The notes under the pieces were generated by a model. The model did not search any database. It saw only the letters and a program-made list of their open reading frames with translations, and was not told the origin of the DNA. Positions 47,734 through 50,195 of a DNA stretch of 64,000 nucleotides are shown in pieces; position 1 is the stretch's first letter, and the number at the start of each line of letters is the position of its first letter. Origin of the DNA: Sulfolobales archaeon (GTDB lineage: Archaea > Thermoproteota > Thermoprotei_A > Sulfolobales > AG1); NCBI GenBank assembly GCA_038881635.1, contig JAVZPJ010000001.1, forward strand, positions 62,001 through 126,000, written 5' to 3'. Both the position numbers and the translations under genes were made by a program.

Positions 47734-47782
47734 ACCAGGGTTTCAGGCGATTTCTAAAATATTGCCTGAACCCTGGGTCGAA
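47734..47782 (+). other. 23S mini-intron 1 (49 nt), domain I
   Basis: It interrupts the conserved GGTGATAG^CCCCGTAGGCG. The intron folds as CCAGGGT/ACCCTGG, a 3x2 internal loop (TTC/GA), AGGC/GCCT and an AT-rich loop. Outside the inner helix, TGAT (47728-47731) pairs with GTCG (47777-47780, two wobble pairs). The 3-nt bulges AGA (47732-47734) and AAC (47781-47783) make a BHB. Cutting after the second base of each bulge joins the exons to the canonical sequence. Confidence 0.75.
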
Positions 47783-49497
47783 CCCCGTAGGCGAAACCAT
47801 GGGGGCTTCCGCTGAGGACCAGAGTACCACGGCTTGGTTTTGCCGTGGGAAGTTGGGGGTCTCCGACCTCCAAAGCTAAATACGTCCCGAGACCGATAGC
47901 GCACTAAGTACCGTGAGGGAAAGCTGAAAAGAACCCCGTGAGGGGGTGTGAAAAGAGCCTGAAACCGCGCGGCGACTCATGGCGTGGCCCTTAAGGAATG
48001 AAGGTGTCAAAGGAAACCCTCGTGAGAGGGGAGTACGAGACACCTGACCGGGGTCACGCCTTCCGTCTTGAAACACGGGCCGGGGAGTTCACGGCAGTGG
48101 CGAGGCTAAGGGGGTTATCCCCGAAGCCGTAGGGAAACCGACATGCCCGCAGCAGGGTTTAAATCCCTGCGAGGGGCGGGGTCTGCAAGGGCCTGGAGTC
48201 ACTGCCGTGAGACCAGAAACCGGGCGATCTAGGCGGGGGCAGGGTGAAGCCGGGGGAAACCCCGGTGGAGGCCCGAAGGGGTTCTGACGTGCAATTCGTT
48301 CCCATGACCCCCGTCTAGGGGCAAAAGACCAATCTAGCCCGGTGATAGCTGGTTCCCGCCGAAGTGCGTCTCAGCGCAGCCCCGCCGGAGGCGGGCTACG
48401 GGGTAGAGCTACGGATTGGAGAGGTATGGAGGGGAACCTCCAGCCTCTCCAGTCCAACTCCGAACCCGTGGCCGTCTTAGATGGCGGGAGTGGGGTCCTC
48501 GGGGTAAGCCTGAGGGCCGAGAGGGGAACAACCCAGACCGGGGTTAAGGCCCCTAAGTGCCGGCTAAGTGCCAACTAAAGGGCGTCCCGAGCCTTAGACA
48601 GCGGGGAGGTGGGCCTAACAGCAGCCATCCTCTAAGGAGTGCGTAACAGCTCACCCGCCGAGGCTCGGGGCCCCGAAAATAGGTCGGGGCTAAGCCGGCC
48701 GCCGAGACCCCGGGGCACGGTCTCTATGAGACCGTGATCCGGTAGGCGGGCGCTCTGGTGGGGCAGAAGCCAGGCCGTGAGGTCTGGTGGACCCGCCAGA
48801 GTTGTGGATCCCGGCGGTAGTAACAGCAAAGAGGGGTGAGAATCCCCTCCGCCGGAAGGACAAGGGTTCCTCGGCAATGGTCGTCAGCCGAGGGTTAGCC
48901 GGTCCTAAGGCAGGCCGTAACACGGTCCTGCCGAAAGGGAAACGGGTTAATATTCCCGTGCCGCGGGGGTAGGTGCGGCAACGCAAGCCCCATCCCCGAC
49001 GCCTCGGGGTAGGCTGACCGAGGCAGTCGCCTCGGCTAACCACATAAGCCCGTGGAGTGCCGTAATGGCGAGAAGCGGGTGAAAGTGGGAATGGGCTCCC
49101 GTATGGGGGCTTCAGCCGAGCCCTGGGGCCCTTGAAAAGGGGATGGGGATCGATCCCCCGCGCCCGTACCGAGAACCGACACAGGTGCTCCTGGGTGAGG
49201 AGCCCAAGGCGTGTGGGGGCTAACCCGGGCTAGGGAACTCGGCAAATTGGCCCCGTAACTTCGGGAGAAGGGGTGCCTGCGGTTTTCAGGTATAACCTGG
49301 GAACCGCAGGTCGCAGTGACCAGGGGGTCCTGACTGTTTAATAAAAACATAGCTCCCCGCAAGCCCGAAAGGGTTTGTACGGGGGGTGAATCCTGGCCAC
49401 TGGCGGTTCGTGAAACCGGGGTTCAACCCGGCGAAGCGCCGCTGAAGGCCGGGGGTAACTCTGACCCTCTTAAGGTAGCCAAATGCCTTGCCGGGTA

Positions 49498-49547
49498 AGG
49501 CGGATATCCTGGCTTCTATGATAGAAAATCAGGAGTCCGCCCTCGAG
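49498..49547 (+). other. 23S mini-intron 2 (50 nt), domain IV
   Basis: It interrupts GCCGGGTA^AGTTCCGGCGCGCATGAATGG (read in parts), the stretch near E. coli position 1952, a region where long archaeal 23S introns are known. Inner helix GGCGGA/TCCGCC, a 3x2 loop (TAT/AG), CCTG/CAGG and an AT-rich TTCTA/TAGAA hairpin. BHB: CGGG (49492-49495) with CTCG (49542-49545), bulges TAA (49496-49498) and AGA (49546-49548). Cutting after the second bulge base restores the canonical rRNA exactly. It is too short for a homing endonuclease. Confidence 0.85.
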
Positions 49548-50143
49548 AGTTCCGGCGCGCATGAATGGATCAACGAGGGCCCCACTGTCCCAGCCCGGGA
49601 CCCCGTGAAGCCCACGGAGCCAGTGCACAGGCTGGCATCCCCCCGTAGGGAGAGAAGTCCTTGTGGAGCTTTACCGCAGCCTGGCATTGGCCTCTGGGCC
49701 TCGATACGTAGCGTAGGCAGGAGACTGTGAGGCAACTCTTTCGGGGGTTGCTGAGTCGCCAATGAAACACTGCCTATCGGGGCCTGGGGGCCTAACCCCG
49801 GGAAACCGGGGGACAGTGTCAGGTGGGCGGTTCGGCTGGGGCGGCACGCCCGCGAAAAGATAACACGGGCGCCCAAAGGTCGGCTCAGGCGGGTCAGAAC
49901 TCCGCCGTAGAGTGTAAGGGCAAAAGCCGGCCTGACCAGGCCCTTGACAATAAGGGGCCTGGCCGGGAAACCGCGGCCTAGCGAACGCTCATGCCCCCCT
50001 CGGAGGGGGCTGGGCATGACAGAAAAGTTACCCCAAGGATAACAGGGTCGTCGCGGGCGAGAGTCCCCATCGACCCCGCGGATTGCTACATCGATGTCGG
50101 CTCTTCCCATCCTGGGGGTGCAGCAGCCCCCAAGGGTGGGGCT

Positions 50144-50195
50144 AGGCGGGTATGGGAATTATTGTATGCATACAAACTCCCAGCCCGCCCCCTAA
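50144..50195 (+). other. 23S mini-intron 3 (52 nt), inside the A-loop
   Basis: It splits helix 92 between U2552 and G2553 (E. coli numbers from memory). Inner helix GGCGGG/CCCGCC, a 3x2 loop (TAT/AG), GGGA/TCCC and a palindromic TTGTATGCATACAA tip. BHB: GGGG (50138-50141) with CCCT (50190-50193), bulges CTA (50142-50144) and AAG (50194-50196). Joining at the second bulge base gives GGGGCTGCCCGCCC, against the usual GGGGCTGTTCGCCC. The A-loop G is thus restored, with CC in place of UU. Confidence 0.75.

Follow-up and report, generated by a model that had tools for sequence, protein, structure and literature searches.

Three putative coding-free mini-introns in a Sulfolobales 23S rRNA gene and a strand-biased bulge in crenarchaeal rRNA introns

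Introduction

Why does a single 23S rRNA gene carry three insertions of about fifty nucleotides at conserved positions, and does what they have in common tell us about their origin or their processing? The gene lies in the window, by which we mean the whole stretch of 64,000 nucleotides that was analysed, from a hot-spring archaeon of the order Sulfolobales as GTDB defines it, Desulfurococcales included. A sequence-only reading of this DNA took the insertions for coding-free introns bounded by BHB motifs and saw in them one internal plan, which suggested spread or shrinkage within one gene. It also called for alignment to other 23S sequences and for a search for the same core hairpin elsewhere. 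Here we report both, and ask what the shared plan is, how widely it occurs and what it might do.

Results

The host gene is full length and paired with a 16S gene (Table 1). To map the insertions we aligned the gene to E. coli rrlB and to ten relatives that lack them and so have empty sites. Excision of 49, 50 and 52 nt restores the relatives' 23S sequence at all three sites, with no base gained or lost, and the boundaries agree to the nucleotide with those given by the sequence-only reading. The first two joins had been described as exact, which they are, and the third as nearly so. In fact the third is exact as well: its join, GGGCU to GCCCGCCC, is present in every aligned relative. It had seemed imperfect because the E. 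coli A-loop is GUUC, whereas all ten aligned relatives, with or without introns, have GCCC (spliced position 2713-2716 in the 23S of the order), the normal sequence in the order.

Table 1. Host gene, insertions and structural elements in the window (site numbers are those of E. coli; ^ marks the proposed cut)
Feature	Position	Strand	Details
16S gene	45676-47179		paired with the 23S gene
23S rRNA gene (host)	47333..50562	+	Rfam RF02540, full length, 2853 bits
Mini-intron 1, 49 nt	47734..47782	+	after 333 (domain I); exact empty site, BHB, covariation
Mini-intron 2, 50 nt	49498..49547	+	after 1952; exact empty site, BHB, covariation
Mini-intron 3, 52 nt	50144..50195	+	after 2552 (A-loop); exact empty site, BHB
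BHB 1, 5' half	47728..47734	+	exon UGAU (central helix) and bulge AG^A; partner GUCG 47777-47780, bulge AA^C 47781-47783
BHB 2, 5' half	49492..49498	+	exon CGGG and bulge UA^A; partner CUCG 49542-49545, bulge AG^A 49546-49548
BHB 3, 5' half	50138..50144	+	exon GGGG and bulge CU^A; partner CCCU 50190-50193, bulge AA^G 50194-50196
Bulged U, intron 1	47743..47743 (any U of 47741-47743)	+	5' strand, 8 bp in; MFE folds
Bulged A, intron 2	49506..49506	+	5' strand, 7 bp in; MFE folds
Bulged A, intron 3	50152..50152	+	5' strand, 7 bp in; MFE folds

The sites are recurrent in the order and empty in most of its members. DNA searches gave complete or partial 23S sequences for about 90 genomes of the order, and we scanned these sequences for insertions. 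These recur at positions 333, 1085, 1666, 1913, 1928, 1952, 2297, 2534, 2545, 2552, 2590 and 2603, and at a few more. Among the genomes that cover each site, 333 is occupied in 8 of 56, 1952 in 12 of 63 and 2552 in seven or eight of 76, one of the eight insertions there fitting 2545 better. Sites that stand empty in most relatives argue against ordinary expansion segments.

Occupants of one site vary in size, from 28 to 1,099 nt at site 1952. The longest belongs to the sister genome of the same genus (G001) and encodes a LAGLIDADG_3 domain (E = 7.7e-11); this genome also has a 105-nt intron at site 333. A genome of the same family (G004) has 49 nt at site 1952 and 46 nt at site 333. Site-333 insertions are present in Sulfolobales archaeon SKYB35, an uncultured Sulfolobales bin and Zestosphaera tikiterensis NZ3; the Z. 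tikiterensis MAG carries introns at 1952 and 2552 as well. For calibration, the pipeline recovered a 56-nt 23S intron in a genome (G192) that is presumably Staphylothermus marinus F1; a second intron there, of 54 nt, was read by hand and then folded. Another genome (G029), presumably Aeropyrum pernix K1, yielded 23S introns of 202 and 574 nt and a 16S intron of 699 nt. The introns of S. marinus F1 and A. pernix K1 have been studied experimentally and the recovered lengths agree with the reported ones, those in S. marinus 23S being reportedly 56 and 54 nt.

The survey also turned up some very small introns. The rRNA genes of SKYB35 (G445, JANXDZ010000001.1) are very intron-rich: at least nine introns in 23S (33-291 nt, most under 110 nt) and seven in 16S (22-200 nt) are BHB-verified, and there are further insertions beyond these. 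The 22-nt member of the 16S set is a candidate intron. The 23S intron at site 1952 of another genome (G459) is 28 nt long; it has a full BHB, and its 8-bp hairpin is unbroken. Both are close to the minimum size for a BHB intron. The 16S gene of the window has no intron; in that of G001 there are about eight insertions, of which five are BHB-verified.

A 4-bp helix between 3-nt bulges on opposite strands, the BHB plan claimed for the insertions, is found at all three splice sites. We rejected this geometry as proof by itself. When the gene was scanned for motifs of 28-70 nt in which a 4-bp central helix with 3-nt bulges adjoins an inner helix of 6 bp, 10 matches were found, against about 7 per shuffled gene (shuffles moving the bases in blocks of two). 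Because chance matches are so common in a GC-rich gene, the geometry is weak evidence; the case rests on the empty sites and on covariation. Across ten sites, with one junction register per site, the central 4-bp helix is perfect in 68 of 71 introns. At site 1952, 99.1% of the cells in the intron helix are paired, and double-sided changes number 21, compared with 6.3 in shuffles. Covariation at site 333 resembles this, with fewer sequences. The insertions therefore have what marks archaeal BHB rRNA introns: a conserved position that is empty in relatives, exact restoration of the exons, and a central helix with opposite bulges kept through sequence change.

They also resemble the small hairpin (HP) rRNA introns, each being a single non-coding hairpin of about 50 nt with a basal BHB, though two of them, at 50 and 52 nt, are borderline by the definition set for 16S (under 50 nt). 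BHB introns of 49-52 nt leave no space for an endonuclease, which bears out the description of them as coding-free. A search of the genome for LAGLIDADG_3 gave no match; on this ground and by length they fall outside the homing-endonuclease introns of the I-DmoI type. A group I or group II self-splicing core likewise had no Rfam match in the window, where the inserts are single hairpins.

Cutting, exon joining and circularization are established archaeal biology, from which we infer their course here (PMC4496867, PMC12918454). The genome encodes a catalytic EndA-type protein and RtcB, and a second EndA-type protein that is a weaker match, nearest to beta subunits and under its curated cut-offs. 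A tRNA-intron endonuclease, whose catalytic and structural subunits the genome appears to encode, would cut after nucleotide 2 of each 3-nt bulge. RtcB would join the exons and probably circularize the 49-52-nt introns.

What, then, is the plan that the three introns share? It had been drawn with a 3x2 internal loop (UAU/AG or UUC/GA). The plan is real, and it extends far beyond these three introns. The loop, by contrast, is better redrawn as a single base bulging from the 5' strand (A twice, U once), because the remaining loop bases pair. A kink-turn reading of the inner loop was rejected on the same grounds.

The search for this core elsewhere found it across sites, across genomes and in both 16S and 23S. 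Among 34 mini-introns at nine sites the commonest pattern, counted by hand in 22, is a bulge confined to the 5' strand at 5-8 bp; the converse, a bulge confined to the 3' strand, occurs once. We then took a wider set of 160 distinct BHB introns, both mini and endonuclease-coding, with long introns, 16S introns and other lineages included. At 4-9 bp, 106 bulges are on the 5' strand and 2 on the 3' strand, counts that (like the p-value below) take related sequences as independent and are inflated by relatedness. The split is 60:0 for 23S of the order, 35:0 for 16S and 11:2 elsewhere. The 16S introns belong to a separate gene and were looked at after the 23S pattern had emerged, and the bias was replicated there. 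Moreover, the 5' bulge is in the majority in all 35 site classes that have one, two more classes having only a 3' bulge. With 2x1 loops included, 105 of the 160 introns have a net 5' excess of +1 and 2 have one of -1, whereas shuffling the interior with the terminal helix kept gives 9.5% and 8.2%. The junctions were chosen via the BHB itself, a choice that is symmetric as to strand.

Statistically, this inner plan, in which one extra 5' nucleotide separates a helix of typically 5-8 bp from a second one, is a structural element general to crenarchaeal rRNA introns. The bulge is not essential, because unbroken hairpin introns exist, six of them among the mini 23S introns; roughly one intron in three has no such bulge.

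Introns are not the only BHBs in rRNA precursors. The processing stems of pre-16S and pre-23S are BHBs as well, acted on by an endonuclease of the same kind (PMC7714728, PMC12918454). Both are present in the window. The 16S stem (approximately 45619-45656 with 47191-47231) has a full BHB, GUAC/GUAC with bulges AAA and UCU, and so does the 23S stem (approximately 47288-47324 with 50610-50646), ACAC/GUGU with bulges AAA and UAU. Such stems share the 3-4-3 motif and the enzyme with the introns, but have long inner and outer helices and mostly no 5' bulge at 5-8 bp. Thirty of 37 automatically found processing BHBs have an unbroken inner helix of more than 9 bp; two have a single 5' bulge at 5-7 bp. 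By search condition their outer helices are at least 6 bp long; on the exon side of introns, no helix exceeds 3 contiguous pairs. Because most processing BHBs of the same enzyme lack it, the bulge looks intron-specific.

Discussion

What might the bulge do? It could offset the weak exon-side helix in endonuclease binding, or act later on the excised intron; the inner plan as a whole probably aids the endonuclease or the ligase with introns whose exon-side helix is very short. We tentatively propose that the extra 5' nucleotide is a second structural signal, apparently not recognised before, shared by crenarchaeal rRNA introns large and small, in 16S and 23S alike and at many sites; absent from most processing BHBs, it may serve intron-specific recognition, circularization or mobility. 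If so, the minimal unit would be the mini-intron itself, made up of BHB, bulge and cap. A less probable explanation, and one we doubt, is that the strand-biased bulge merely breaks an over-stable hairpin, or is a relic of intron origin, with no role in processing. Such a bulge could be any base, as it is (U, C, A or G), and could be dispensed with, as it is in mini-introns without a break. However, helix breaking alone would favour neither strand, and the bias is 106 to 2; processing stems, moreover, are long and mostly without breaks.

The three mini-introns could also derive from one hairpin that spread in the gene by ectopic insertion or reverse splicing. We consider this very improbable. 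Introns 2 and 3 both start AGGCGG(A/G)UAU and are alike at 16 of 19 terminal positions, but intron 3 matches the site-1085 intron of G004 slightly better (17 of 19, with the same 5' start), and the sequence of intron 1 has little in common with either. Across sites, introns are no closer within a genome than between genomes (7.69 versus 7.87 of 19; permutation p = 0.69), which does not support spread within the gene. Same-site introns are more alike (12.1 of 19), as predicted because introns must pair with the exon. The plan common to the three is the general one, lineage-wide in rRNA introns, and is therefore no evidence of copying among them.

Shrinkage, the other origin that had been suggested, fares better: reduction of endonuclease introns to mini-introns is plausible but unproven. 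The LAGLIDADG intron of G001 at a shared site fits shrinkage or replacement. Loss of the endonuclease, one site at a time, is likewise consistent with the endonuclease-coding introns that relatives carry at these positions. Within a single lineage, we could trace no form midway between an endonuclease intron and a mini-intron. Since the occupants of recurrent sites in the order range from 28-nt hairpins up to a homing-endonuclease intron of 1.1 kb, each mini-intron would most simply be the endonuclease-free end state of its own site and no copy of its neighbours.

It is most improbable that the insertions are retained in mature rRNA as expansion segments, or cut without joining to leave a fragmented 23S of the kind that exists in other organisms, because their conserved positions are empty in most relatives, BHB-exon pairing is conserved and covaries, a retained A-loop insertion at 2552 should disturb the A site, and the genome encodes RtcB. 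We judge it highly likely that all three are archaeal BHB introns, each reduced to one coding-free hairpin, resident at its site, spliced by the tRNA-intron endonuclease and RtcB route, and sharing a general inner plan.

Coding-free mini-introns are already known, and the three described here add to that class. The premise that known 23S introns are usually long was too strong. Two short coding-free introns are known from Staphylothermus marinus 23S (Kjems and Garrett 1991, cited in PMC3608112), and hairpin introns under 50 nt occur at 7 of 13 16S sites, in Thermoproteales and Desulfurococcales (PMC4496867). The S. marinus introns are short, coding-free BHB introns from the same order, and they have the +1 inner asymmetry as a 2x1 loop; they differ in being two, at other sites (1928 and about 2603). 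The 16S hairpins are also single-hairpin BHB introns without an endonuclease, but are in 16S rather than 23S. Mini-intron 2 presumably has its insertion site, 1952, in common with the I-DmoI intron of Desulfurococcus mobilis, and shares its splicing route; unlike mini-intron 2, that intron is long and endonuclease-coding. That a D. mobilis 23S intron encodes I-DmoI is cited in PMC3608112. A literature search of limited reach found no description of an insertion at site 333 or of a strand-biased bulge.

The class of mini-introns now extends to a site in domain I (E. coli 333) that is occupied in eight genomes and, as SKYB35 exemplifies, 23S genes of the order can hold many coding-free introns. 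The bulge provides a new feature for finding archaeal rRNA introns, and makes testable what besides the BHB marks them for processing.
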